Below, piece by piece: positions 4,671 through 25,149 of a stretch of 64,000 nt of DNA. The DNA lies in contig NC_134849.1 of assembly GCF_965363235.1 (NCBI RefSeq), positions 13,790,863 to 13,854,862 of the forward strand, in the 5' to 3' direction. The first letter of the stretch is position 1; every line of letters starts with the position of its first letter. The notes beneath the pieces are model-generated. The model worked only from the letters and a program-made list of their open reading frames with translations, was not told where the DNA came from and searched no databases. Both the position numbers and the translations under genes were made by a program. This DNA is from Mytilus galloprovincialis. Lineage: Eukaryota; Mollusca; Bivalvia; Mytilida; Mytilidae.

Positions 4671-7600
4671 ATGGCCTCTACAAGCGTTTCCAGATTTTCT
4701 CGGCTACTACGCACAGTTTGTACAAGGTAAATCAAGGAAGCTCATTTCTGACAAGTTGGTGATCCTTGCAAAATTCACTTTTTAAATTGGTTATGGCCCG
4801 AGAGCACAGTTATATCTCAGTGCATTTCTTTCAGACATTCCTCAATCGTTGCTATTATTGAGGGATCGAGAACTATCTAAGGGGAGGGGCAGACACATAG
4901 TTCAGGTAAAAAAAAAGGGGGGGGGGGGTGCCTGGCACTCAAAAAATGAAAATGAGGAAAAATCCAAAGTACTATAAAGTACTTCAAATGACAAATTTAT
5001 GGCTATACAGATTTATTCAACTCATTTTCATAGATCAAAGATAATTGTAAATGTAATTTATACCTGTCATGCCTGTCAAAAAACTTTTTTTGGATCTCAA
5101 GTCTCCCCCTTTTCTTAATCTTGATTTGCTGATCACATTTAGGCCAAACAAAAAAGTATGTGTGTTTACTGTCACATGTTGAAAAAAAAATAGGGAAGGT
5201 AGGTAGGGATTTTTTAAAAATTTTTAATATTTTTTTTACATCGAGTAAATCATGTGACGTCTATGGCATTTTATGGGAGCAACATTGTGACTTTAACAGT
5301 CATGACAATGCTTAATCAAAAATGGTCCAAAAAACTTTAGGGTGGGGGATAAAAATTAGTGTAGGTAGGGATACAGTACACACACATACTTTTTTGCTTG
5401 GTTTACAAACATATACCATTCACGATTTTACATGTTTTAAGAAATTTATAAGCAGTAAAATACATTGTATATCTTGTCAGATATATTCAAGACAATTTCA
5501 AGTTACAAAGTATTGTGTATGTGTATAACTATAACTATACTTGTCAAGACAATTACATTAATCATGAATGGTATATGTAGCTAGGATTGTTGAATAAAAC
5601 ATTCATACATTTTTATGATTTCAGAAAATTTAATCAACCTGAGATAGCTGGGATTCAATTAAAAGGTATAGAGTATATATCTTGATTTTTATTTCAGTTC
5701 AAATGACATAAATATAAAGCATGTTAACTTAAGATATATATGACGGATTAGACAACCACAGTGATATGCATTGTACAAAATTGTGCAGATTTGAAAACTT
5801 TAAAGTGAAAAAGGAAAACAGGTAGAGGACATCATAGAGTCTTCAACAATAAAAAAAAGTCTTTGAAAGTTATATTGCTGGTGCAGTATCAATTTTCTTG
5901 GATTTTGTGGTACCCCTCCAAACACAAAGGACTAGTTTCACATTTACCGAAGGTGCTGAATTCAACTTTGTCAATAAGGTTGAATTTGATTCTTAAATGG
6001 ATCCATTTCAAAGGTTGCCGGCTGGTATAGGAAGTAAAAAACACTAAAGACTCCCAACATGTTTTAAAATTTGTCAAAGTCAGCACATTTCAAAAAGTGC
6101 AAAGGTTAATTTTGAATCACTAGCCACAACAATTTTCTGGATTTGCTGTACAAAAATGGATTTCATGCTGATGTAAAAAATGAATCTTTGATTTTTTTCA
6201 GGTCATTTTGGAACTTCTGCTGCAGAGAAAGAATATGCATTTGAGGTGATTTTTGTTTGTTTCTTTCCTTTTTATGCATTATAAGATTTTTCACATATTT
6301 ATCATGTTTATACCATGTACTTATGAAATCAAAAATAGGTTGAAATTAAAGGATGTTTTATGAATCTAGCAGAAAAATTGATCTCATGAAAAAGGGTTGG
6401 TATGGGATACAAAGTAGAGAACAATTGGTTAAGAAAAATAAAGGAAAGCAAAAAATCAACCTAAGATAAATAAAAAACATAGAACCCACCACTGTCGTGA
6501 CATTTTTCACACTTATTTTCTTTGATATTTAGTTTTGATTCTTTCTTGTTTTCTCTTTAGACATTACATTTTTTTAAACACATTATTCCTATTGAGAGTG
6601 AAATGATTTAATTTCATAATATTTTTCAGATGGCTTGCTCAAACATCAGATATGGAGAGGGAGTAACAAAGGAAGTAGGAATGGTAGGTTATAGGTCAAT
6701 CTGATTTAAATAAAGATCCTGTGTCCATGCATTGCTTACCTAATAAGAAGGGGGCGGGACCTTTTTCTGGACGTCTGGATAGGGTGTTTTTAAGCTCAGG
6801 ATTTCGGGATTTACCCTTTCTGGATCTGGGATTTCTTTTTTCGAATTTCGGGATGTTGGAATTATTTTTTTTAAATTCGGGACTTCAGGATTTCATGTTT
6901 GTAAGCCCAGAATTTCGGGATCAGGACCCCTCCGACCCGCCTCTAATAAGGATCTGACAGTTTAGACTGGTACCAAACTGTTATTGAGTGGCTTGCATAT
7001 TCAGAAGGCATACTGAATATTTTACGGAGGGAACCAACATACTGACAATGCAGCATTCTACTTTCTGTTTTATGACCTTTCAGGATCCTCTGGTTTTGTT
7101 GTAATCATATACAAACCTTAATTTTATTGGCTGATGTGAAACAAACAAAGTGTCATCTGATCCTTGTAAGCTAAGAAGGATGGCTTACAAATTTTTATGA
7201 TAACTTATATACTGAATCATGTCTTATCATTCCCTTTAATTGAAGCCTAGAAAATTTGATGATTTTTTTTCCATGAGAAATGAGTGTTTTTAAATTTCAA
7301 AGTATCAGCAAACAGGAAATGGCCTCACAGCCGATGTTAAAATTACTCATGAACAACTGTGCAAAAAAATTGCTTACACACTACAACTCACCATTATCAA
7401 ACTGGATACAAAATATTAGATCAATCCGTTCCATAGAAGCCAAAAAACCCCTAAAGGAATGGACAGACAATAGTCCAGCAGATACTTGTGGTTGATATTG
7501 GTTGCTGTTATTCATGATATATTTGTGAAAGCAGTTGCTGACAATATTATATTTTTACAAGGACACAATGACCTTTAAGAATAAATGTTATGACAGACAT

Positions 7601-10600
7601 TTTATGTTACAGGATTGTAATAACTTTGGTGCTAAGAAAGTATGTTTGATGACCGACAAACATCTGGTTGATTTAGATTGTGTAAAAACAGTTCTGCAAT
7701 CATTGGATGACCATAAAGTCAACTATAAACTGTACTCTAATGTCAGAGTGGAGCCCACCAATGAAAGGCAAGTACAAACCCTATGTATTGTTTAAGTGGG
7801 GTACATGTAGTTTGATCAAAGACAAATACATAGCAGTGTTCCAGCTAGGATTTGAAAATAGAGGGGCGCGTTTTTAAAAAACACTGAAAAAAATCCAATA
7901 CTTAATATTACCACATAAAGACATATTTTTAGCAAGCATGTAACTTAGTAAATAGCTATTATATACAAGTTTAAAAATCATTTATTTAGAACATATAAGT
8001 TAAAATCAAACTGATAGCAATAAAAGACATCCTTTGTTAGTCTTGTATTATTTTAATTTTAGTTTCTTATGTACAATTTGGAAATTAGTATGGCGTTCAT
8101 TATCACTGAACTAGTATATATTTGTTTAGGGGCCAGTTGAAGGACGCCTCCGGGTGCGGGAATTTCTCGCTACATTGAAGACCTGTTGGTGACCTTCTGC
8201 TGTTGTTTTTTTCTATGGTCGTGTTGTTGTCTCTTTGGCACATTCCCCATTTCCATTCTCAATTTTATTACTATATTCATTTCTCTTTCAGAACTACAGA
8301 TTTTTCAAAGAAGAGTTCAAATGCAAATAAATAATATTAAACAACAATGACAAATCTTCTGTTTTTCTTTTTGAAGAAGGTTGTCACACATTAGTTTCAT
8401 CACAGTTTAATTTTACAGTTAATATTTTTGTTAATGTCTGTGTTTTCAAGTTTGCCCTGTGACTTGTCTTTATCAATTTGACCTGAGAGAATATTTTCTC
8501 CACCTCTGCTGTACTGAGTGGTTGTACATGTCATATTGCAACACTGAATAGTTTTGCGCAACAAGAGGGTACATGGATAATAGGTTTTTATCCTAATGAC
8601 AAGGTGAATGAAATAGCTCTAGCAGACTAGATAAGGAACGATCTGTAAGTTCTGCTGAGGACACAAGAGCTATAAAGTCCTGTTATTGAATAAGGAGAGT
8701 TTCTATCTCTGTATAACCATACATTGTTTCACTGTTGTCTGTTCAATTCAACAAGCATCTCCGTATACAATGGTATATTTAATGTTGAGCGTATCTAATA
8801 AAATCAATAAGTTTGTCAAAACAGATTTCAATCACAAGCACTTGTTTCTATTCATATTGGAAGACCCCCTATCAACGTGTATTTACGGAAATATACGTTG
8901 ATGGGGGTCTTCCAATGGATAGAAACAAGTGCCTGTGATTTCAATAAGAAAATTGATACAAAAATCGGACTTTCGAGAGCTCCGTAATCGGCACAATAAT
9001 AAATTATTTCAATTTTGTAAGTTTATTATCAATTCAACAAGCATCTCCGTTTAGGCAGCAACCATTTGATTTTCTGGGGGGGGGGGGGGGGCTATGGTTT
9101 TTTTTTGAAAAAAAAGTTTGTTTCCAGTTTTTGGAGAAAAAAATAATTTGTTTTTGATTCTGAGAAAAAAAAATTGTTTGTTTCACCCTCAGCTGCCACC
9201 ATATGTAATGCTAAAATTGAAAGAAAAAATTTGTTTTCGACTTGTCGCGAAAAAAATAGATTGTTTTTCGCCGCAGGCGGAAAAAAAATTTGTCCAGAAA
9301 AAAAAACCATAGCCCCCCCCAGAAAATCAAATGGTTGCTGCCTTACTTCATGTTGAGCGTATTTAATAATATCAATATTAAAGTTAGTCAAAACGGACTT
9401 CAATTTAAGAAAAAATGATATAAAAATCGGACTTTCGAGTGCTCCGTAATCGGCGGAATTTACAATAGAAGAACAATTGCGATATTTGATAGAAACCTTT
9501 CTTCTAAATGAACGTTATTTTATAAATAACAAATACATTAGAAATGAACACCGTTCACATTTATTTTATAAATTCTATTTTGCATCGTCAGGTGTTAATA
9601 TAATCAATTCATTTAACTTCGATGTTTGGTGATTCAGGGCAAAGGGATTAGACAGGGTCGTAAATTTCACCTGATTAAGTAATTGACTCCAATCAAATAG
9701 GTGATTATATACAGGTAACAAGTGTCAACAATTTTAATCTGTTGTCTTAATGAAGTGTGTGTATAAAGAACTCAACAAAATGGCGACGATATGATGAAAA
9801 AAGATCGTTTTTTAAACTTTTTTTCAAAAGGGCACAGAGGGGCGCAGGGGCGCTTAAAAAAGGCAGAGGGGCGCAAAATTTCGGGGGCGGGGCGCGGCGC
9901 CCCTCCATTTCATGCTAGCTGGAACACTGCATAGTATACGTTCATCAACCAATAAGAGCTTGTCCCAACACGAGAGCATAGAGGGTGAAAGTCATTCTTA
10001 ACACCAACAATTGATCGATCTATTTTACATTCATCATGCTTGAAAATGTGATGGAATGTCACTGATTTTAAAATGACTTTAAGATATTGTTATGCCTCTG
10101 CAGTTGATGAGAGGGCATTAAGTTTTACTCTTGTCCGTCTGAACGTCTGTTTGTACTTCCCAAAATTGGTTTCTGTTCTCTAACTTTAGTTTGCCTCAAA
10201 CAAATTTTATGAAACTTATGTCAATGCTTATTACCACAAAACACAGATCAAGTTTGAATTTGGGTAGCGAAATCGCTTTAACCATTCTAGAGTTATTCCC
10301 AATAACAAATCTGTTCTCTAACTTTAGTTTGCCTCAAAACAAATGTTATGAAACTTATGTTCAATATTTATTACCACAAAACACATGTCAAGTTTGAATT
10401 TTGGTGGCCTCACTTTTCCTGTTATTTAGTTATGCCCCTTTACAAATGGAAAAGTTGCTGAATTTTTCGTTTCCCTTCTCTTACTTAAGATAGTCTCAAT
10501 CAAATATTATGAAACTTATACACAATGCTTATCATTGCTTATTACCACAATATTTCAATAAAGTTGAATAAAATATTGTTCTCAAGTTTTGTCCCTTTAA

Positions 10601-13600
10601 AATGTTATAAGCAAGCGGGTGGCATGATCTTATTTTTATGTTAATATCTTTTAATTCTGTAAAAATTTGTATATCCTTTCCTGTTTTGCAGCTTTCAGGC
10701 CGCCATAGATTATGCCAAGGAGGAGCAATTTGACTTGTATATTTGTGTAGGAGGCGGGTCAGTGATGGACACATGTAAAGCAGCCAATTTGTATGCCAGC
10801 AATCCATCAGCAGAATTGTTAGATTATGTCAATGCCCCTATTGGCAAAGGTTTACCTGTTACTCATACATTGAAGCCACTTATTGCAAGTAAGTACACGA
10901 AGGCATACCTGTCAACTGACCTGTATTCTGCGGGTGTGACCAGAGATTTTCACAATTCTGAGGGATCACCCGGAAAACCCGCCGGGTCATTGAAATAACC
11001 GGGAATTCCGAAAATGACCCGCTTTCACCCGTATTTCTTAGCCTTGAGATTGATTTCATAAGTAATATTCCTTTGAAATACCGGCAAATTCGTAATTCAT
11101 CCATGAACAGGAAGTTCATCTAGCTATGTAAACTATCAAATTAAGTGACCCATTAAGTGCATGACTTCACTTGACAGCTTTGACACTTAATTAACACCAA
11201 TTACCTTAGCTTTAGGTTGTAAATAAATTGCACCATTGGTTTACAAACTGAACTAGAGTTACTTCCCCTTATTTGTCACCTTTCAAAATTATTCCTTAAA
11301 TTTACGTTTTATGGGTGAAAAAGATTAAATCATAAAAATATAAAATTCAAATACATATTGAAAAATAACTTTTCATTATTTTTATACCTTTATACAATAT
11401 TTAAAAAAAAGTTGAAAATTGTTTTTTACATTTATACTTCCTTTAACTGTATTACTATATTTTATCATAGTCTAATTTCCTTGTTAAATGAAAAACATTG
11501 TGGTTAAAGGCTACATAGTCAATAGTCTTAAACATTTAAGAATTACATTAAAACATGTAAAAGTGTTTGATGATTGTAGTATTTTTTCTCAAAAAGTAAA
11601 GCACATAAGACTGAGTTACACAAATTTATAAAAATATTTAAAAGTTAATGAATTAATATTTAATTAGATTTAAAATGACTTAACAAAGTGAACATGCATT
11701 GATGTTTTGGTATCTTTGATATACATTATTAGAAAATGTACCATAAATACTGAAATTCAGCTCGAAAAAGTTCGTACGCGTTATGACCTGAGATTTGATT
11801 CTTCAATGCAGGTCATGACCTGCATTTTCATCGTCACAGGTTGACAGGTATGTGAAGGAAGAAAAAAAAAAGGGAAAACCTAAGTTGATCAAGGACACCA
11901 GTCAGACAGTCAAAACCAGTGATACCATTGTTGGACCAGAAGAATGAGACCTTTTTGTACCAAATGTCCAATAATCGTTTTCTAATTTAAAACAATTGCT
12001 AATTGCTCAGATTTTTCTGGTTAATTATAATTTATCTCTGGATCATGTTGATTTAATGTTTAGTGAGTCTTCACTTTGCCATCTTTAGAGGGCAGGCAGC
12101 ACATTTTTAACTTTGTTGTTTCATTCATAAGCGTCATGTTTTGAAATGATGTTAATGCGTCAAGAACTTTCCCAAATTTTCGCAAAATTCTATTTTATTT
12201 TGGTACATTTTCCTGAGCTCTAGTGCATTAATTTTTTTTTGTTATGCCTCAGAATATAAATAAGGGTTCTGCAGATTTAATTTCAATTACAATTTTTAAC
12301 ACAGCAAAATCGACAAACGTTTGTATATAGGTAACAATACATGTGGATTTATGTGGGAGGCATATTTTAACAGCCATTATTATGTATATCTCTGAGTCTG
12401 CCCTAAATATATATATATCAAGAATTTCATCAGGGTATTGTTTACAAAGCGATAGAAGCACGTCATATTAGAATTATAGTTTTGTTTTGTCAGTAATGTT
12501 TGCATTAATTCCATATCATCCTTTAATTATTTTCAGTAACAACAACAGCAGGAACAGGAAGTGAAACAACAGGAACATCAGTGTTTGATTACCTCCCCTT
12601 GAAATCTAAAACAGGTTTGTGTGTTACTATGTTACAGTATAATAGAATGTAAAGCAATGATTTTCTTATACAGCATTTCTTCAAGAGCCTGAAATGCAAT
12701 GGGTACTCACTTGTTAACTTAAGTCACAGTCTTGTGTATAAAATTACAATGGCTTATTTGTCAATTTTCATCTAAGGAAAATTATATTGTTAAAAAATCC
12801 AGCATAAAACAGTCCTATATATTTTTATTTTGGTAATAAAGGCTGGAATTATATTTACAAAAACATATATAGTTGTAAGTTGATGAAATTCAAAATCGTG
12901 ACCTTTTGAAATACCAAAATATAAGTATCAATAAGATGTAGAACTATATCTCTAAATTACTGAGTAATTATACATGTTTAGTTATGTGTAAAATCATTTT
13001 AAATAAAATCAAAAACAGAACCGATAACGACAATATTCAAAGATCACACTTTCGTTCAAATCTTTAAGAACAATTGCCATAAGCTGATATAGATCATGTC
13101 TAAGGAATGTACTTACGTGAAATTTCTAAATCTAGAATTTAAAATTGATACTTTCAAATATTGACTTCAGGGAATTTGTAGAACTGTTACATATCAGCGA
13201 AATTCATGTTTTATAACGATATTATTTCCCTGTAACCAATTCTTATTTCATATATAGTCAAGGGAAATAACATCTGATAGGTAATTAGTACATACATTAT
13301 CATGATTGCAGAATATTAATTAACCCATATTCCAAACTTTGCTCTAGCATGTCTAGGACTGACCTGATTGTTTAGCCGATTGACCTATTGACATTTGCAA
13401 TAAAAATTAGCTTCTGCTTTGTGACATCATATAATTTAACTAATTAATAAATAGTGTAAAATCCAGAACCTCACCTAAGTACATCCTTAATTAAAGTAGC
13501 AAACGGCCAGAATTGTCAGAAATTAACTAATAAAATATAAATGCTTTTTTTAAGGGGGAAATAACTCTTACAGAACTTAAATTTAAAAAAAAAGTTGCAT

Positions 13601-16600
13601 TCTGAAATGTAGTAGCCCCTTTTAACTAAGCAATACCACAACTGTATTTTATTATATCTATAAGGGAAATAACTCTTACTAATTTAGAGAAATAGAATGA
13701 GGACTTTTACAATATATTAATTTACCTTTATTGTAGGAATATCCAATAGAGCTATTCGACCAACATTAGGCATTGTAGACCCTCTACATTTACGTACTAT
13801 GCCAGAAAGAGTAGCAGCTTATAGTGGTATAGATGTATTATGGTTAGTTTAAAATAATAAAAAAAGACAGATATTTTGTCAAGGACACAAATTTAAAAAT
13901 ATTTAAACTTTGATTTTGTAACTATTTAAAAATATTCTTGTAGTAAAAAACCATTATTAAAAATGCTTTTAAAGATATTGAAGAAGGCCAGTGGTGGAAA
14001 CATCTTAAATTATGGTTTATTACTACAGTAATGTATTATATGTTTCCTATTGAAATATCTGAAACAAGTATTTGAAAATAGACATGAGAGAATCATTTTA
14101 AAGAAATAATATATTAACAGCCCTATGAATGTCAAATATGGGAGCTAAATATTTGAAATGTATATTCTCATCTTAATTATTTAACATAAACATTCAGAGC
14201 AATTGCAGTCTAAAATTTTTAATTTGTTTTTTTACTGAAAAATGACAATGGCTAAGTAGCATTAAAAAATGTTAAATTAATGTTGATAAAAAGAAATTAC
14301 AATTTATTATTAATACTTTTGTGATGAAGGTCATTATAGTGGATATCTGCATGATCATACTAAAAAAATGTTGATTTCATGATGAAGAAAAAAAAAATGA
14401 AAAACAGAAATTGCTTTTGCACCAAATTACACAAAACATATAGTAATAAATGACCTTCATGCATGAAAACATATAAAATAAAAATTACAAACACTTGACA
14501 TTAAAGTAATCTGTCATCACCCTCTTTGAACTAATTTGTCCAGTGGTAATACTTATATTAGTAATTTTATACACTTAAAAAAGTAAGAAATGTTTACTTG
14601 TTTGAATAAATTTATCATAATTTCATTTCCTTATCAATTTTGAATGATATTACCTTTTTATTCTTTTAAGAAAGAAAAAAATATAGATGAAATTTTTATA
14701 CAGCCCCTGATATTATTTTATTTTGGGGGTTAAAAAATGTCCTTAACATTCTTGTGTTGCTTTTTATTTTCTTCTATTTGGAGTTTAACAATTTATTTGA
14801 AGAACTAACAAAATATTTATTACCTTATATAAGTATAACAAATCTGAATGACTAAGGGAGATAACTCTGCTTCCCAAATTATTTCCCTATTCCAGTAAAT
14901 AGAAAAAAAATACTTCCCCTGACTGTAAATAGACTTGTTAATTAATTTGGTGACTGCCAATCATGATTTTAGCTACCATAGTACTAATTTCTTCTTTCTT
15001 TTTTTTGGTCATACAGCGGTTCAACTATTCCAGATCTTTGAATTTCAAATATTCGTTTTGAGCATTCCATGAGGACAGTACATTCAGGAAAGCACTTAAG
15101 AAGTATGAAATTCATAAAGTATTGTTTTTGTTTTTCAGTCATGCTATTGAGTCCTACACAGCAATACCCTACAGAGACAGAGTAACTGGAAGACCTGCCA
15201 ATCCAAACTTAAGACCCGCCTACCAAGGTTGTAATCCAATCAGTGATATCTGGTGCATGCATGCTTTAAAGATGACAAACAAATATCTTAAAAGGTATGC
15301 ATATGCAAACTGAAAGTTGGTTAATAAGATTTGGAAAAAGGAATGTCAATATAATTTTTTCTGAGCAAAACTTCATGTAATACCCAATGAGGTGATGAAG
15401 ACTCTATTTATTTGGGGGTAAAAGGTTAAAAGAGCTTAGCAACCATTAATAGACTGAATTTTGAAAAGGATAACTACTGTTAATCACATGTGTAAATCAA
15501 AATAATATTGCAAGGTTTTTATTTATCCGACAGTATCAGGTTGTCAAAAATAAAAAGTTGCATTCTTGTATTCATAATATTTAGTAGTAAAATTCCATTA
15601 TAAAGTATTTGTACACCTTTACAGTGTTTTCCCCAGACCGTTTTAGCGCTGCGATTTTCAGCGCTATTACAATTTCCCGCTGTCCTATTGCACTGACCGC
15701 AGCGCTATCTAGTGCAAGCGCGTCGCTATATTTTTTTCGTAATTTTCAATTTTTTTTTGTAATTTTCAAATTTCCTGCTTATTTTTCACTTCGGATCTAT
15801 TGATCGACTGGTTTACTATTTCTGAATGAATTATTTCCGTTGTATTAAGTAACTCCGCAGGACCAGTCTAATAAATTTTACAAAATAGCAACGGTGACCT
15901 ATAGTTGTTAATTTCTGTGTCATTTTGGTCTTTTGTGGATAGTTGTCTCATTGGCAATCATACCACATCTTCTTTTTTATATTTGAAAGATCAAAATAAA
16001 CAAAGATTTCAACATTGACATCTATTTTTTTTTCATTTAAAGAATATATAGAGGCATACATATGATTAGAAACAAACCCCAAGCTGATACGACTTGTGAA
16101 ATTTCACTTTCTCGATGTCCAGCTATGATGAGGCCATATTATAAAACGTTAAGGTCAGAAAAATGAGAAATCTTTCTGCTAAAAAATGTCTATTCTTATA
16201 AAATGTCGTAAGGTGAACAGTACACTGCTACAATGGTTACAAAATCAAACAGAAGCTGACAATGAGTTTATTGTTGGTCCTACATGTCCTGTTAGTAATA
16301 ACAAATCTTCACATAGGTAGTCTGGTGTAGACCCATCATGGAAAAAGACTTCTCCTTCAGTTTTATACACAGATAGAATGAGGATTAAAGATATGAATTT
16401 ACAATGGAGAAAAAAAGACTTTTTATATCATGTATATCCAGTCAATAACTTTAACAAAGGGGTACATTGTAACTTCCATAAGAATGATGAGGACATCATT
16501 ACAAGAGAAAACATCAATAGCATAATATAATAAAAACACATAACAAATCAATTACAAACAAACTGTGCGCCGCGATAAAGTTACTTTTTTTATTAAGTGT

Positions 16601-19600
16601 TGTCCATGATTTTTATTTAATTATATATATAGAATATTAGCTAATGAAATTAATGAATATTTCAATTCAAAGAGCAGTTTATGATGCAGATGACGATGAA
16701 GCCAGACAAAATATGGGATTGGCATCAGCGTATGCTGGCATTGGGTTTGGTAATGGAGGTGTTCATTTGTGGTACGATTGAATACCACATTTCATGATTT
16801 TTTTTTTTGATTTTTTAATGGTTCTTTGGTTGGAAGTGATAAGATGGAATACATTAATTATTTATCTTAAAATTTTCATTTTAAGTTAAACAAAATTTAA
16901 AGGCTTTGAAAATACAATTTAAAATTTTTTTGACATACAATTCTTGACAATTGGTGCTATAATCAATACCAATTATGATAAAACATATCAAAGTATAAAG
17001 AAATTATTCAAAACTAAGGTTCAAACTGCCATGGTCAAATGTATCCTTCTATGAATTGGCCTATTTAATGTGTTTTATTTAAGATTGACCTTTACAAAGA
17101 ATTAATCTATATTTTTAATGTATTCCATTTTTTATTGATTAGCTTGCTTACTGTGAATTCTTTTTATGTGTAGTATTCCTATTTTCGTGCATTTCATGGG
17201 TTCAGGTAAACTATGAAATGAAATATGTTCAACAAAATACTGAATTTCAATAGTCTTGTTTTTTTTACTTTGGTAAAACTACAAATTTGAATAGTAACAA
17301 TTTAGCAATTTTTTTGTAAATCAACAAAAATTGGTTACCACAAAAATAAATGAATTCATAGTATTTTGATAGATTTATTGCTCTTATCATTTTAGACATT
17401 TGTAAATTTACTAAAATGGGTTAAAATTTGGATTGACATTTTCTAAAAGCAATGTGTGTCAAATGGGGAAAGTATTTTTTACGAAAAATGCAACAATTCT
17501 GTTAAGAATTGGAAACTTTTTATCACTGAAAATATATAATGGATATCTTTGATAACACCAAAGTGATTCCAAACTGTAATGATTATTGCAATACTTCTAA
17601 TTGTGTGGTTACATGAGCATCTGTGATCATGTTTATGTATGTTACTGCTTGCCTTGACTTTGTACTTTCTAGAATTGTAGATGTGATGGTAAACTAACAG
17701 CAAACCAATTCTCTTTATTTTAATATTGACTAATATGATTAATAGCATGACTTTTTTTCTTTAATAACTGGTGGTCTTTGAATGCATTATTTGTGTTATT
17801 ATACTTTACTATAGCAACCACTTATAGAATTATTAAGATGTAACTGTAATTTACTGTATGATTTTCATTGTTTTTGGCGCACATTTGCATGTCAAAATAA
17901 CAACCTTTCCTTGATTTAATAATTTTGATTATACACCTTTCGTGATGGCCATAATTGTAGATCATGTATGGAGGAAATTATTTAAAGGGAAAATATGTAA
18001 TGTACAATGTACTTTTCTTAGGGAATTAATTTTATAAATTGTTATATGCAAATTTCAGGGCCATGACTTTTAAAGTTCCCATTTGAGATGTTGTAAATAA
18101 TAAAGCTGAGAAAATTGTGAAAAATTATGACCAAAAAAAGGTCTCACAAAAAATGAGGACCTTGCATTTAAATTTTTTATAGCATGATAATTTTCTGCAT
18201 GCAGCATTTCCAAATTCTTTTGCAATTATAAAGCACATACAACTTTTTCAATCTAAGATACTATTTGTTAAGTGTAAATATCTGTTTTTTTCTAACTGAA
18301 AGTTAGCACTCAATAATTTAAACTACTTTAACATTATATATCCAATCATATACCGGTAATATAAATATATCATATTCTAAGGCTAACAGTTATATGTACA
18401 GTGTAAACAAATTATTTTTTGTGAGTAATTTATGTTCGAGATTTAAGGGGTTAGAACAATATTGTGAATATAGGCTGGATAGAAACAGACCAACTTTAAG
18501 TTAATATCACCAAAAATAAGTTCAATGTAGAAAAAAAATTATCTGAAAAAAAGTCAAGAAAGTTCATTGAGTTATGATTGCTTTTTGCTATTTCTTTGCA
18601 TCTGGCTTTAAAAAAAGATTACGATATTAGAAAATGATCTTCTTAAAAATTATTTTTGTAGTTAATGTGGGATTTAATCTATACACTATTTTGTCAGAGT
18701 TGCAACCAACAGTGATCAATGGATTCATGAAATCCCCCACCCCCCTCACCCCCCCCCAAAAAAAGAAATGTATTTCAGATTTACCCGTATTTTACTTCAG
18801 AGCTGTTTACGACAAAGGCGATGTTGAGGCTAGATCAGAAATGCACATGGCAAGCTGTTATGCTGGTATTGGGTTTGGTAATAGTGGAACCCATTTATGG
18901 TAGGAAGAAGATAAAATCAAATAAAAAAGACTGGAACAAACTATTCCAAATAGAATTTAACAAACAATAAGAGTACATTTAAATGACCTATTTACTTGGA
19001 AACCCACATGTACATAATGAACAACTGTTGGTGATTGCATGTATTAACCACTTTTTATTTTTGCATGAGAGATCAATGAAAAGTTTGTCTCATTTTTTTT
19101 CAAAAACATATATTCTAACTTACCACATAACACAGATTATTTAAATTCTGTTTTATATTAATGCATACAAATCATCATGATCATTGATGGAACTTACTAT
19201 TATAAAACACATAACAGATTAAGAAAGAGTTGTCTCCATTACAAGGTCTTCTGCCTTAAATATTGCTTCTTTGAAATACTCATTTACTACTTCTGAGCTG
19301 TTTGTTATGAATGTGTTATGGATGTTTGATGCAATGCTTCAAGCTTTCTGGCTGGTATTTGACTTTTGGATAACTTATGCATTTTACTGCTTACACTTTT
19401 ATAAATCTACAATAATTAGCTGTTTGAAACTTTATCCATAATAACATAACTTATTCCTTTCTTAATTTGATATATGAAGCTATTTTCAATTTAATTATGT
19501 TTTTGTAAAATTGTGAAACAGATAACCAGATTTGAGAAATTTTTATTCATATCATAACCAGATTTGAGAAATTTTTATACATTCATGATATGATGCATGA

Positions 19601-22600
19601 AATTCAATACGTTTGAGAACTGATAAATTGGTATAAAAACTTAACTTTATCAACATGTAATGCTTAATTTAAAGTTTTTTCATTTGATTTCATTCTTTTT
19701 TAATGAGTGATTATTCAGCAGTCCACTTATAACCTTGAAATCAAGATATTTATATATTTTATATTTTAGCCATGGAATGTCATATCCTATCTCAGGACTG
19801 GTTAAGAATTTCAAATCCAAAGATTATGATGATGATCATCCTATGGTGGTAAGATTCATTGATAATTACAATGCAACATTGTTTGTTACGTTCATTTTGA
19901 TTGGATAACGTCACAAATTTTCATGACATAAAATCACAATTGATGCTGTGAAAACATAAGGGCAAAAAATGTATGATTTAGGTTTGTTTTCTATCAGTTT
20001 CATGAAAGTGGAGCTAACAATATGGTTTTTAAGCTCCAATGGCATCAATTGGTGATTTGATGGTCACGAATACTTGTTGGCTGACTTCACTAAAGCTTTG
20101 CAAGTAAACTTAATTTGTAACCATCAAATCACTAATTAAAGCCGTCGGAGCTTAAAATACAATACAGTTATCTCCTTATTATTATGTGGAAAAAATATAG
20201 ATCTATTATTAGGTAAAAACTGCTAGAAAATAAGATTGATTGATTTTTGTCAGACTCTGATGTAGGCTTATGTTGTAATTTCTCTTCTCCACAGAGAAGA
20301 TTCTTTAAAAAAATTCAGTTCTGTGCATATATTTAATAAATCAAAAGTGTTTAAACCTTTATTCGACAGTGCTCTTGTTTTATATCTACACAAATGGTTA
20401 AACTCAGTCACTTGTTAATAGTCTAAACATGTGCAATATCACTGAACAGAGATTTGAAAACCTCAATTTGCAGCAGATTAGAGATATTGACCTATTAAAA
20501 TGAGAAGTGATATTTCTTAAGAGGGAAAATGTCCAGTAAAGTTAGCAAAAACTCAGACACATATGAACATTTTCTAATACAATGTATCCAGAATATAATT
20601 TATTAATTTTCGTGGATACCAATATTCATGGATTTCGGAAAACTTAAATGTTCAGGGATATTTAATTTTGTGGTTTTGAAGAATTCAGCATATAAGTTTT
20701 CAGAAAATTTTTCATTTGTTGAACATTTAATATCATAATTCACCTGTTCACGAAAATAAGGAATATTAGTGAAGTCACCATAGTGTGACAATAAATGACC
20801 CATGTTTTATTTTCTTATAGCCACATGGACTATCTGTTATAGTGTCTGCCCCTGCTGTGTTCAACTTTACTGCTCCAGCTTGTCCAGAGCGCCATCTACA
20901 AGCAGCAGAGTTTTTGGGTAAGTATCAGAGATGATTTGATTTTCAGTTATTTTTTCCTATAAGAAAATATTTAAGAACTTTTGTTAAATCATCTTAAATT
21001 ATACATGGTTATTCTGTTACAGTAGTGAACTTAACACTATAACTGAATAGTTAAACTTATGGTGAACAAACTACGAAATGTTACTAGGTAAACAAATTTA
21101 GACATGAGAAGAAAAATATTTCAATATTGCAAGAAACAAAAAGGAATGATATTAATATTTACCCCAAAACAGGATAACCAATGATGGAAAATAGGAATTA
21201 AGAGAAAATAGTGTAATCAAGGATCAAAAGATAGGGATAAGAGAAATTGTTTGACCTATAATAGAAAGATAGGAATAAAGAGAAACAGGTGTGAACAATG
21301 ATAGCATGATTTGAATAAAGTAAAATTTTAAATTATACAAAGTCAGACAAAGTCAGACAAATATATTTACCATGAAATCAAGCTTTAATTGTATTTTCAT
21401 CACAGGTGTTGATATCACAAATAAAAGAAAGGAAGATGCTGGTCCAATTTTATCAGACAGACTTAGACAAATCATGCAAGACTTAGAAATGCCTGATGGT
21501 CTGGCTGCATTTGGATACACATCAGCAGACATACCAGCTCTAGTCAAGGGAACATTACCTCAGGTATGTGTTAAAGGGGATACACAGCAGACATACCAGC
21601 TCTAGTCAAGGGAACATTACCTCAGGTATGTGTTAAAGGGGATACACAGCAGACATACCTGCTCTAGTCAAGGGAACATTACCACAGGTATGTGTTAAAG
21701 GGGATACACATCAGCAGACATACCAGCTCTAGTCAAGGGAACATTACCACAGGTATGTGTTAAAGATACACATCAGCAGACATACCAGCTCTAGTCAAGG
21801 GAACATTACCTCAGGTATGTGTTAAAGGGGATACACATCAGCAGACATACCAGCTCTAGTCAAGGGAACATTACCTCAGGTATGTGTTAAAGGGGATACA
21901 CATCAGCAGACATACCAGCTCTAGTCAAGGGAACATTACCTCAGGTATGTGCTAAAGGGGATACACATCAGCAGACATACCAGCTCTAGTCAAGGGAACA
22001 TTACCACAGGTATGTGTTAAAGATACACATCAGCAGACATACCAGCTCTAGTCAAGGGAACATTACCTCAGGTATGTGTTAAAGGGGATACACATCAGCA
22101 GACATACCAGCTTTAGTCAAGGGAACATTACCTCAGGTATGTGTTAAAGGGGATACACATCGGCAGACATACCAGCTCTAGTCAAGGGAACATTACCTCA
22201 GGTATGTGTTAAAGGGGATACACATCAGTAGACATACCAGCTTTAGTCAAGGGAACATTACCTCAGGTATGTGTTAAAGGGGATACACATCGGCAGACAT
22301 ACCAGCTCTAGTCAAGGGAACATTACCTCAAGTATGTGTTAAAGGGGATACACATCAGCAGACATACCAGCTCTAGTCAAGGGAACATTACCACAGGTAT
22401 GTGTTAAAGGGGATACACATCAGCAGACATACCAGCTCTAGTCAAGGGAACATTACCTCAGGTATGTGTTAAAGGGGATACACATCAGCAGACATACCAG
22501 CTTTAGTCAAGGGAACATTACCACAGGTATGTGTTAAAGGGGATACACATCAGCAGACATACCAGCTCTAGTCAAGGGAACATTACCTCAGGTATGTGTT

Positions 22601-25149
22601 AAAGGGGATACACATCAGCAGACATACCAGCTCTAGTCAAGGGAACATTACCTCAGGTATGTGTTAAAGGGGATACACATCAGCAGACATACCAGCTTTA
22701 GTCAAGGGAACATTACCTCAGGTATGTGTTAAAGGGGATACACATCAGCAGACATACCAGCTCTAGTCAAGGGAACATTACCACAGGTATGTGTTAAAGA
22801 TACACATCAGCAGACATACCAGCTCTAGTCAAGGGAACATTACCTCAGGTATGTGTTAAAGGGGATACACATCAGCAGACATACCAGCTCTAGTCAAGGA
22901 AACATTACCACAGGTATGTGTTAAAGGGGATACACATCAGCAGACATACCAGCTCTAGTCAAGGGAACATTACCACAGGTATGTGTTAAAGGGGATACAC
23001 ATCAGCAGACATACCAGCTCTAGTCAAGGGAACATTACCTCAGGTATGTGTTAAAGGGGATACACATCAGCAGACATACCAGCTCTAGTCAAGGGAACAT
23101 TACCTCAGGTATGTGTTAAAGGGGATACACATCAGCAGACATACCAGCTCTAGTCAAGGAAACATTACCACAGGTATGTGTTAAAGGGGATACACATCAG
23201 CAGACATACCAGCTCTAGTCAAGGGAACATTACCACAGGTATGTGTTAAAGATACACATCAGCAGACATACCAGCTCTAGTCAAGGGAACATTACCTCAG
23301 GTATGTGTTAAAGGGGATACACATCAGCAGACATACCAGCTTTAGTCAAGGGAACATTACCTCAGGTATGTGTTAAAGGGGATACATATCAGCAGACATA
23401 CCAGCTCTAGTCAAGGGAACATTACCTCAGGTATGTGTTAAAGGGGATACACAGCAGACATACCAGCTCTAGTCAAGGGAACATTACCACAGGTATGTGT
23501 TAAAGGGGATACACAGCAGACATACCAGCTCTAGTCAAGGGAACATTACCACAGGTATGTGTTAAAGATACACATCAGCAGACATACCAGCTCTAGTCAA
23601 GGGAACATTACCACAGGTATGTGTTAAAGGGGATACACATCAGCAGACATACCAGCTCTAGTCAAGGGAACATTACCTCAGGTATGTGTTAAAGGGGATA
23701 CACATCAGCAGACATACCAGCTTTAGTCAAGGGAACATTACCACAGGTATGTGTTAAAGGGGATACACATCAGCAGACATACCAGCTCTAGTCAAGGGAA
23801 CATTACCTCAGGTATGTGTTAAAGGGGATACACATCAGCAGACATACCAGCTCTAGTCAAGGAAACATTACCACAGGTATGTGTTAAAGATACACATCAG
23901 CAGACATACCAGCTCTAGTCAAGGGAACATTACCTCAGGTATGTGTTAAAGGGGATACACATCAGCAGACATACCAGCTTTAGTCAAGGGAACATTACCT
24001 CAGGTATGTGTTAAAGGGGATACATATCAGCAGACATACCAGCTCTAGTCAAGGGAACATTACCTCAGGTATGTGTTAAAGGGGATACACAGCAGACATA
24101 CCAGCTCTAGTCAAGGGAACATTACCACAGGTATGTGTTAAAGGGGATACACAGCAGACATACCAGCTCTAGTCAAGGGAACATTACCACAGGTATGTGT
24201 TAAAGATACACATCAGCAGACATACCAGCTCTAGTCAAGGGAACATTACCACAGGTATGTGTTAAAGGGGATACACATCAGCAGACATACCAGCTTTAGT
24301 CAAGGGAACATTACCTCAGGTATGTGCTAAAGGGGATACACATCAGAAGACATACCAGCTCTAGTCAAGGGAACATTACCTCAGGTATGTGTTAAAGGGG
24401 ATACACATCAGCAGACATACCAGCTCTAGTCAAGGGAACATTACCTCAGGTATGTGCTAAAGGGGATACACATCAGAAGACATACCTGCTCTAGTCAAGG
24501 GAACATTACCTCAGCTATGTGTTAAAGGGGATACACATCAGCAGACATACCAGCTCTAGTCAAGGGAACATTACCTCAGGTATGTGTTAAAGATACACAT
24601 CAGCAGACATACCAGCTCTAGTCAAGGGAACATTACCTCAGGTATGTGTTAAAGGGGATACACATCAGCAGACATACCTGCTCTAGTCAAGTGAACATTA
24701 CCTCAGGTATGTGTTAAAGATACACATCAGCAGACATACCTGCTCTAGTCAAGGGAACATTACCTCAGGTATGTGCTAAAAGGGGATAAGTTGAAACAAG
24801 GATGGTTAGAAAATTGTTCAATGACATTAAAATGCTGGGTTATTTCATTAAATGTTTTGCACACTCCCGATGATATGAGACAATAAAAATACAATGCATC
24901 AGTTAAGGATGTTCACTACTCTTAGTTTTGACATTTTGTCAGATATTGGGAATCCTCTAGTTTTATCCATGAAGTGCCAATAAGAATTTTCCCATAATTT
25001 TATTGTGTTTAAAATTGAACTTTTTTATTTTTTCGTCTTAACACAATTTTCTATTTAAATTTCAGCATAGAGTTAATAAATTGTCACCAAGACCACAGAC
25101 AGAGGACGACTTCGCAATGTTGTTTGAAAACAGTATGAAGAATTACTAA
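4671..25149 (+). CDS. ADHFE1: Hydroxyacid-oxoacid transhydrogenase, mitochondrial (iron-containing alcohol dehydrogenase family), 14 exon positions
   Basis: Family knowledge: this enzyme oxidises 4-hydroxybutyrate to succinic semialdehyde while reducing 2-oxoglutarate to 2-hydroxyglutarate, in mitochondria. Exons read from the sequence: 4671-4726, 5625-5665, 6202-6245, 6630-6683, 7613-7767, 10692-10888, 12537-12614, 13737-13842, 15139-15294, 16673-16771 or 18801-18899, 19770-19848, 20821-20917, 21406-21563, 25066-25149. All phases agree and give 1404 nt (467 aa), equal to human ADHFE1. Residues 1-22 are basic and free of acids, like a mitochondrial presequence. GGGSVMD (137-143) and TTTAGTGSE (184-192) are the cofactor-binding loops. 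Likely Fe ligands are D241, H245, H330 (HGMSYP) and H357 (PHGLS). The start ATG opens the presequence. Intron 5 uses a GC donor; the other introns are GT-AG. No clear AATAAA lies just after the stop. Confidence 0.95.
5144..5406. mobile_element. Small inverted-repeat element in ADHFE1 intron 1
   Basis: AAACAAAAAAGTATGTGTGT at the left and its near-complement ACACACATACTTTTTTGCTT at the right, about 260 bp apart, with AGGTAGGTAGGGA and GTAGGTAGGGATA inside. It looks like a miniature TIR element; target duplication not resolved. Confidence 0.45.
6748..6942. mobile_element. 195-bp MITE flanked by the 8-bp duplication CTAATAAG
   Basis: CTAATAAG occurs at 6740-6747 and again at 6943-6950, tightly flanking a segment that starts AAGGGGGCGGG and ends GACCCGCCT. 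The inside has repeated TTTCGGGAT motifs. An 8-bp duplication fits hAT-like transposition. It sits in ADHFE1 intron 4, 64 bp after the donor of exon 4. Confidence 0.65.
8000..8270 (-). repeat. Dispersed repeat family A, copy 3 (reverse)
   Basis: The reverse complement carries TTCAACTGGCCCCTAAACAA and AATACAAGACTAACAAAGG, matching the copy at 2360-2760. It lies inside the 7834-9929 element. Confidence 0.65.
8726..9470. repeat. Duplicated block with hairpin inside the 7834-9929 element
   Basis: TTCAACAAGCATCTCCGT, then ATGTTGAGCGTAT, then AAAATCGGACTTTCGAG and GCTCCGTAATCGGC occur in order twice (from about 8735 and from about 9032). The first copy contains a hairpin with arms at 8828-8880 and 8890-8943 around GGAAGACCCCC; the second is split by the MITE at 9054. 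Confidence 0.6.
9054..9342. mobile_element. PIF/Harbinger-like MITE, TTA target duplication
   Basis: Perfect terminal inverted repeats start GGCAGCAACCATTTGATTTT and continue into a G-run/C-run. TTA flanks both sides (9051-9053, 9343-9345), the 3-bp TWA duplication typical of Harbinger elements. The interior is itself nearly palindromic, rich in AAAAAA and GTTTGTTT. The open frames through it are products of this structure. Confidence 0.75.
10085..10570 (+). repeat. Repeat with internal units of about 120 bp, upstream of ADHFE1 exon 6
   Basis: Three diverged units share TTCTCTAACTTTAGTTTGCC, then CAAATTTTATGAAACTTATG, then TTATTACCACAAAACACA and CAAGTTTGAATTT. The start TATGCCTCTGCAGTTGATGA looks like the head of a dispersed element; its class is unknown to me. 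Confidence 0.5.
10904..11852. mobile_element. 0.95-kb TIR element, CATACCTGTCAAC ends, 15 bp after the exon 6 donor
   Basis: Left end CATACCTGTCAACTGACC, right end GGTTGACAGGTATG, flanked by CGAAGG (10898-10903) and TGAAGG (11853-11858), a likely 6-bp duplication with one difference. Subterminal GACCTG and ACCCG motifs. No transposase frame. ADHFE1 exon 6 ends at 10888, so the insertion spared only the donor and a few bases. Confidence 0.65.
15623..15740. mobile_element. Single end of a hAT-like element in ADHFE1 intron 9
   Basis: CAGTGTTTTCCCCAGACC followed by repeated AGCGCT motifs is a typical hAT-type terminus. No matching opposite end was found. Confidence 0.35.
15925..15990 (+). repeat. 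Dispersed repeat family D fragment
   Basis: GTTGTCTCATTGGCAATCAT then ACCACATCTTCT. The same fragment occurs at 49600-49665, 50155-50212, 55000-55060 and, reversed, 52845-52985 and 59715-59748. Confidence 0.6.
16673..16771 (+). CDS. ADHFE1: ADHFE1 exon 10a, first of two alternative homologous exons
   Basis: A 99-bp exon entering in phase 2 and leaving in phase 2, encoding [11 protein letters not shown] to [11 protein letters not shown]. This segment lies just before the Fe-ligand histidine in HGMSYP. The acceptor has a poor pyrimidine tract (ttcaattcaaag), weaker than that of exon 10b, which would suit regulated use. It matches exon 10b at 22 of 32 residues and shows no stop or frameshift. 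Its NGGVHL end is closer to the human protein than that of 10b. Confidence 0.85.
18801..18899 (+). CDS. ADHFE1: ADHFE1 exon 10b, second of two alternative homologous exons
   Basis: A 99-bp exon with the same phases as exon 10a (2 in, 2 out), encoding [18 protein letters not shown] to [11 protein letters not shown]. The acceptor is strong (tattttacttcag) and the donor is TG|gtagga. The segment around [10 protein letters not shown] is closer to human ADHFE1 than the same part of 10a. Joining 10a to 10b would give TG+A, an immediate TGA stop, so only one can be used in a full-length product. Skipping both would keep the frame but remove 33 residues. Confidence 0.88.
19520..19580. repeat. Short tandem duplication in ADHFE1 intron 10
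   Basis: ATAACCAGATTTGAGAAATT followed by TTTAT occurs twice, about 35 bp apart. Confidence 0.6.
20022..20163. mobile_element. Foldback element in ADHFE1 intron 11
   Basis: Left arm TTTTTAAGCTCC...GGTGATTTGATGGT and right arm ACCATCAAATCACTAA...GGAGCTTAAAA are inverted repeats about 140 bp end to end, looking like a small MITE. Confidence 0.55.
21175..21330 (+). repeat. Diverged short tandem repeat upstream of ADHFE1 exon 13
   Basis: Three loose copies of a roughly 55-bp unit with GATAGGAATAAAGAGAAA, followed by a perfect double of CAAAGTCAGA. Purely intronic. Confidence 0.4.
21513..24789 (+). repeat. Minisatellite of about 51 units made from the end of ADHFE1 exon 13 plus its splice donor
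   Basis: The unit is 65 bp: the last 51 bp of exon 13 (codons for [17 protein letters not shown]) followed by 14 bp of intron starting gtatgtgttaaag. I counted about 51 occurrences of the donor over about 3.28 kb, giving a mean period near 64 bp. Common variants are 62 bp, lacking either GGG before the unit or TCA within ACACATCAG. Point variants (CTCAG/CACAG, CTCTAG/CTTTAG, CATCGG, CATATC) mark units. A block of about 400 bp at 23240-23640 recurs at 23878-24278, offset 638 bp, showing higher-order duplication. Reading from exon 13 into the next unit meets TAG, so only the first donor gives the normal protein. Confidence 0.97.
24907..25015 (+). mobile_element. Truncated TTAA-type MITE just before the last ADHFE1 exon
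   Basis: TTAA then GGATGTTCACTACTC, with GACATTTTGTCAGAT, GGGAATCCTCTAG and TTTTATCCAT, matches the left half of the element at 57504. The right end is absent before exon 14 at 25066. Confidence 0.5.

Follow-up and report, generated by a model that had tools for sequence, protein, structure and literature searches.

The closest described relatives of the structure reported here are the mirages of amphioxus, boundary minisatellites found in Adh3, the globin genes BflGb6 and BflGb9, troponin C and PGBD5. In the parts of the two reports available to us, many mirage copies carry AG/GT, cluster edges escape homogenisation, the repeats are proposed as a substrate for intron gain, haplotype or somatic changes in length are reported, and reverse transcription polymerase chain reaction and Adh3 data are read as pointing to undisturbed regular splicing (PMC3087553, PMC3902484). 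The accessible texts on other systems describe minisatellite units of human IFI6 (6-16/G1P3) that supply alternative splice donors (cited in PMC4526556), variable internal tandem repeats of human segmental duplications, four units long on average and in some cases at exon-intron boundaries (PMC2812944), and, as an established process, the gain of introns through tandem duplication of AGGT segments (the Rogers model, with ATP2A1, potato RdRp and fission yeast; PMC4974935). Boundary minisatellites are thus described, in the available text of the literature searched, for amphioxus and in isolated human cases; none in a mollusc surfaced in that search, outside which subscription papers lay. Here we analyze a 64,000-nt window (the whole stretch of DNA studied) from the mussel Mytilus galloprovincialis, in which the end of the penultimate coding exon of an ADHFE1-like gene, together with its splice donor, is repeated in tandem 51 times.

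The window lies on the 81.3-Mb contig C12 of a genome searched over 1.385 Gb in 331 contigs, and the array occupies the following part of the gene:

21513 to 24783, plus strand: 51-unit minisatellite across the exon-intron boundary, from Tandem Repeats Finder (TRF) and the unit list (22 unit types)
21406 to 21563, plus strand: penultimate coding exon of ADHFE1 (tblastn match 21399-21563, E 9e-15; splice sites read)
21564 to 25065, plus strand: last intron of ADHFE1, containing units 2-51 and the intronic part of unit 1
25066 to 25149, plus strand: last coding exon of ADHFE1

TRF reports the repeat as 21513-24788, with a period of 65, 51.1 copies, 95% matches and a score of 5899. The unit is what the earlier note on this DNA had proposed, the last 17 codons of the exon (51 nt) followed by 14 nt of the intron, opening with a complete 5' splice site, and the exonic part of unit 1 is the final 51 nt of the penultimate exon itself. 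Most units are 65 bp long (n = 37), the others being 62 bp (n = 11), 59 bp (n = 2) and, for the last unit, 66 bp (n = 1); of two 3-nt deletions, the shorter ones carry either a single one or both. Searching the whole genome at the DNA level gave at least 51 matches, all at the ADHFE1 locus. The repeats run head-to-tail and are of minisatellite size, the unit spans the boundary and AG/GT is kept in the copies: the array is a boundary-spanning minisatellite, a mirage by structure.

The consequences for the transcript depend on three further features:

21564 to 21569, plus strand: donor 1 (CAG/GTATGT), the sole donor with the normal frame, from the computed products
21626 to 24774, plus strand: donors 2-51, from the donor list and U1 duplex energies
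21603 to 21605, plus strand: TAG in frame for any donor after the first, lying before donor 2

About 51 near-identical donors had been claimed, and 51 units there are, 49 of them with an intact donor: the sequence reads TCAG/GTATGTG in 31 units, ACAG/GTATGTG in 18, TCAA/GTATGTG (CAA/GT) in unit 13 and TCAG/CTATGTG, without the GT, in unit 47. GT is kept in 50 of 51 and the full CAG/GTATGTG in 49 of 51. The duplex of U1 with the 49 intact donors has an energy of -9.2 or -9.6 kcal/mol, and among 10 other ADHFE1 donors scored a single one, at -11.4 kcal/mol, beats them. We translated the protein products for donors 1, 2, 3, 4, 5, 10 and 51. Donor 1 gives the normal C-terminus and donors 2, 3, 4, 5, 10 and 51 all terminate at the TAG, in agreement with the claims that the first donor alone yields the normal frame and that later ones add an in-frame stop; because the TAG lies upstream of donor 2, it is contained in every longer product. 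The distance from this stop to the junction is 20 nt for donor 2, 82 nt for donor 3, 147 nt for donor 4 and 3163 nt for donor 51. Decay of messages with a premature stop follows, in vertebrates, a 50-55-nt rule. Under this rule the mRNA from donor 2, whose stop is 20 nt from the junction and is therefore expected to escape, would be stable and encode a truncated protein, and decay, which the earlier note had foreseen after any later donor, would set in from donor 3 onward (82 nt and more).

The acceptor of the penultimate exon lies 158 nt from donor 1. The AGs at unit ends (6 checked) have pyrimidine fractions of 0.39-0.44, compared with 0.50-0.78 for 12 ADHFE1 acceptors, and the fractions for the 7 AGs of the consensus unit are 0.28-0.56. 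Extra exons or splicing inside the array would be unlikely, since most unit AGs have poor pyrimidine tracts.

Traces of the origin and growth of the array are found at its edges and in its interior:

21513 to 21517, plus strand: GGATA, exonic microhomology copy at the array start
24784 to 24788, plus strand: GGATA, intronic microhomology copy directly after the last unit
23251 to 23631, plus strand: units 28-33, identical to units 38-43 (23889-24269), from unit comparison

As GGATA sits at both array edges, the founding duplication appears to have been bounded by a 5-bp match. We regard it as probable that the array is a mirage-type minisatellite born of microhomology, which has grown and been homogenised and which is tolerated, perhaps almost neutrally, since donor 1 is still chosen. 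The segment from the exonic to the intronic GGATA would have been duplicated, probably through slippage or repair between the 5-bp matches, and unequal exchange would have expanded and homogenised the array to 51 units. Only unit 1 would be coding, the remainder being intronic and removed with the intron, and the main pairing across the exon would still be made by donor 1, the nearest to the exon's own acceptor. Since every later donor lengthens the exon, exon definition ought to work in favour of the first donors; a degree of leakage to donor 2 and later donors would nonetheless be expected, giving truncated protein or decay.

The last unit, at the 3' edge, has a fourth A absent from all other units and a C that recurs in units 7, 44 and 46, variants that would be explained by an array edge being less homogenised. 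In the interior, the identity of units 28-33 and 38-43 is, judging from the unit sequences, a multi-unit duplication; in 2000 shuffled unit orders the longest repeated block averages 2.7 units. Because this block of 6 units is repeated exactly, copy number may plausibly differ between individuals. Homogenisation or youth, with no visible part for selection, appears to have preserved the donors, since 2 of the 9 columns of the donor 9-mer vary, compared with 15 of 57 in the rest of the unit. Selection preserving the donors is accordingly a candidate that we tried and found unsupported, the 9-mer varying like the remaining unit. A second rejected candidate was that variants pass through the coding unit: of 10 distinct substitutions in the exonic part, 5 are synonymous, with a fraction of 0.27-0.31 expected, which is not significant (P 0.08 to 0.15 at an expected fraction of 0.25 to 0.30).

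The exonic part of the unit holds a further element:

21529 to 21535, plus strand: ACATACC, exonic, complementary to the donor's GGTATGT and found in every one of the 51 units

The donors were said to be offered in a row; they are present, but may not be freely accessible, because each unit carries ACATACC and the donors are predicted to be masked. This 7-nt complement is the longest for the donor (shuffle P 0.021, from mononucleotide shuffles of one donor), and the 10 other ADHFE1 donors have complements of at most 6 nt within 60 nt on either side. The predicted probability that the 9-nt donor is unpaired has a median of 1e-4 over the 51 array donors, with a maximum of 0.0065 in the mutated unit 13, against 0.0015-0.11 for the 10 other ADHFE1 donors and a median of 0.037 for the gene background. 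The exon-intron join has a predicted opening of 0.0027 without the array and of 3e-5 as donor 1 within it; in four other folding windows the contrast is weaker, 0.0014-0.0042 without the array versus 1.2e-4 to 3.0e-4 in it. When the exon part was shuffled, 10 of 300 arrays were equally masked in folding.

These observations bear on several other explanations. Were later donors used frequently, array length would set how much ADHFE1 mRNA is lost to the premature stop, and copy number would tune output. The intactness of the donors and their U1 energies would suit this, as would the inclusion of the TAG by every later donor, and intron-proximal donors can win, according to the accessible part of PMC5585400. 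The available account of the amphioxus mirages, however, reports regular mRNA splicing as undisturbed (PMC3087553). Heavy loss of ADHFE1 would also probably be selected against, because its exon matches keep open reading frames and no second copy emerged from a search for the Fe-ADH Pfam family, whose 3 matches in the whole genome are each an exon of the ADHFE1-like gene in the window. We consider tuning of output unlikely, and the amphioxus boundary arrays, which suggest regular splicing, suggest that an effect of the array on ADHFE1 output is not the default expectation. Hairpins might instead mask the donors: the exonic ACATACC would pair with its own or the preceding donor, lower U1 access and slow removal of the intron. 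The low predicted opening of the array donors relative to the gene's others and to background is consistent with this, as are donor 1 being more closed in the array than the array-less join in all folding windows and the small number of equally masked shuffles. All of this is thermodynamic prediction, however, and the complement P value has the narrow base given above; ACATACC is moreover encoded by D-I-P codons, and U1 binding during transcription may outrun folding, so that an effect of masking on the intron seems doubtful to us.

A ratchet can also be imagined in which the unit end CAG/GTATG acts as both acceptor and donor, the junction being rebuilt each time and the array removed stepwise or by re-splicing to leave a correct mRNA. 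The junction is common to 49 of the 51 units, and the AGGT duplication model of intron gain is presented as established in the text available to us (PMC4974935), but the unit-end AGs have the weak pyrimidine tracts described above and we think this route very improbable. Least credible is an assembly artefact or a non-functional gene copy, given that the array lies in an 81-Mb contig and comprises 22 distinct sequence types, that the ADHFE1 exon matches are open and that like structures occur in other genes. The preferred explanation, a microhomology-born array tolerated through continued choice of donor 1, has points against it as well. The use of donor 1 is something that we infer, and theory leaves the choice of donor unsettled and leakage possible, because, where two 5' splice sites compete, the intron-proximal (downstream) one can be favoured by SRSF1 and the other by hnRNP A1, as the accessible text has it (PMC5585400). 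Donor 1 is, by prediction, no less masked than the other donors; 3 of the 7 unit AGs, at 0.50-0.56, overlap the two weakest real acceptors (0.50), which keeps some use of internal acceptors conceivable; a repeated block of 6 units, the maximum, also arose at least once in the 2000 shuffles; and for one of the other arrays described below, L041/L049, the examined DNA does not take in the unique exon that would precede it.

Boundary arrays are not special to ADHFE1. We searched the whole genome with a pattern of three consensus donors 40-70 nt apart and merged listed places within 10 kb of each other into arrays; the densities cover differing stretches, each of about 100 listed places, and merging fused the neighbouring arrays L040 and L041 into one. 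Among the matches listed, there are 24 arrays of CAGGTRWGT in 261.2 Mb and 12 of AAGGTRWGT in 130.1 Mb, each 0.092/Mb, whereas controls with one base changed have 14 in 673.9 Mb (CAGCTRWGT), 4 in 131.7 Mb (CAGGARWGT) and 16 in 421.0 Mb (AAGCTRWGT), a pooled donor-to-control density ratio of 3.3 (P 8e-7). On C1 only, the matches listed comprise 13+12 donor arrays versus 2+4+1 control arrays. Before merging, CAGGTRWGT has 943 places versus 292 for the reversed pattern and AAGGTRWGT 1338 versus 383, and the controls have 152 (CAGCTRWGT), 303 (AAGCTRWGT) and 732 (CAGGARWGT). The last figure is high before merging, 87 of about 100 listed places falling in one C1 array, and donors separate from controls only in the array-level counts. 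A very long array at C1:131675885-131684740, with a period of about 52 bp over about 9 kb, dominates this control.

The excess is one of arrays, since in a 200-kb sample the single motifs occur at about the same frequency (CAGG 4, AAGG 4, CAGC 6, reversed CAGG 4). As a rough figure, about 180 arrays would exist genome-wide for the two donor motifs at 40-70 nt spacing. Large minisatellites are common in this genome (in 200 kb, 3 arrays measure at least 1 kb), and donor arrays make up a small share of all arrays, because none of the 32 TRF rows of the 200-kb sample (period 20-500, at least 2.5 copies) has a consensus donor. Not every pattern match is a donor, as C1:118398197 resembles, by eye, a plain coding repeat. 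We advance only tentatively, as a real possibility, that there is a genome-wide class of about a hundred to a few hundred boundary donor arrays, in which donors are preferred places of minisatellite birth or retention and length variation feeds splicing variation and intron lengthening. Separately, the acceptor-like pattern TTTTCAGG in three copies has 311 unmerged places versus 143 for its reverse, perhaps 3'-boundary mirages.

Naming at the sequence level covered a minority of the CAGG arrays. The 15 loci of the CAGG search examined here contain four distinct arrays, the first four along C1, and 4 of 4 encode conserved exon ends at the donor:

C1:594366-597482: L035, L-type Ca2+ channel exon; 3 units of 54 bp (a multiple of three), 22/22 residues equal to a PDB chain, E 1e-5
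L040, minus strand: glycogen debranching enzyme; at least 20 units of 64 bp, E 1.6e-7
L041/L049, minus strand: glycogen debranching enzyme; 78-bp units, E 1.6e-6, GDE_C E 7.5e-9
C1:4813736-4816878: L036, F-box only protein 7 (FBXO7) exon; 67 bp, strand opposite to the pattern, E 1.1e-4

The channel array has TTATT at both edges (by eye), like GGATA at ADHFE1, and the FBXO7 array has the donor CAG/GTAAGG. L040 and L041/L049 are neighbours at C1:7059442-7068959 (places to 7069966) on the minus strand and, by position and strand, most likely belong to the same gene. The names of the channel, FBXO7 and L040 exons rest on the PDB search: in Pfam the first two are below cut-off (Ion_trans E 0.034; PI31_Prot_N E 0.051) and the L040 exon has no match. 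A peptide at C1:127977324 is weakly phosphodiesterase-like (PDEase_I E 0.028, below the curated cut-off; best PDB E 0.17), and those of the arrays at C2:98194090, C1:130654007, C3:6366283 and C1:127201178 matched no family.

The remainder of the ADHFE1-like gene was traced by tblastn with a human ADHFE1 bait, which gave an exon chain on the plus strand from at least 6624 to 25149; the first coding exon or exons were not found with this bait. Two similar 99-nt exons, at 16673-16771 and 18801-18899 (plus strand), encode the same protein stretch in the same phases, and they look mutually exclusive because splicing both together creates a TG/A stop. The intron at 7768 (plus strand) begins with GC (AAAG/GCAAGT), and the reading frame points to a GC-AG intron. 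Scans of the window for Rfam families (at gathering scores) and tRNAs gave no matches. In the genome as a whole the myticin family, a mussel family, has 17 matches, compared with none in 14 control genomes, all prokaryotic, which indicates a Mytilus-type mussel; a search of the genome for COX1 gave no match.

With 49 near-identical donors between two acceptors, the locus amounts to a natural experiment in spliceosomal choice among equivalent 5' splice sites, which, to our knowledge, has been studied mostly with two or few copies. Like arrays at the exon ends of other conserved genes suggest that repeats of this kind recur and, though little studied, are more than an isolated case, and the surplus of donor arrays points to exon-intron boundaries as hot spots of minisatellite birth or retention in a mollusc. 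Many loci are available for testing how tandem duplication relates to the growth and gain of introns. If the genome-wide class is real, it would include ion-channel and metabolic genes and would be a standing source of splicing variation and intron lengthening.

Set beside the described systems, as far as their accessible texts go, the mussel array is like the amphioxus mirages in being a head-to-tail boundary minisatellite with AG/GT in its copies and a less homogenised edge. It differs from them in having one 5' boundary, at which almost all donors are intact, and in its 51 units, compared with 3 and 6 in two amphioxus BflGb6 haplotypes. The human variable internal tandem repeats are likewise minisatellites that change gene structure, but a donor train such as that of ADHFE1 is not described for them in the available text of PMC2812944. 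Tandem duplication of a segment bearing AG/GT is shared with the Rogers model as there outlined, whereas at ADHFE1 an existing intron would have been lengthened, without a new one, and the Rogers model concerns intron gain. The IFI6 and ADHFE1 arrays are alike, on the description cited at the outset, in that minisatellite units contain donors. The IFI6 units treated by Turri, Cuin and Porter in 1995 are reportedly short, about 12 bp, and later donors there are said to add residues, in contrast to the 65-bp ADHFE1 unit, whose later donors reach a stop. What seems to be new is that donor arrays are significantly in excess in a mussel-type genome, in which one gene carries 51 units.
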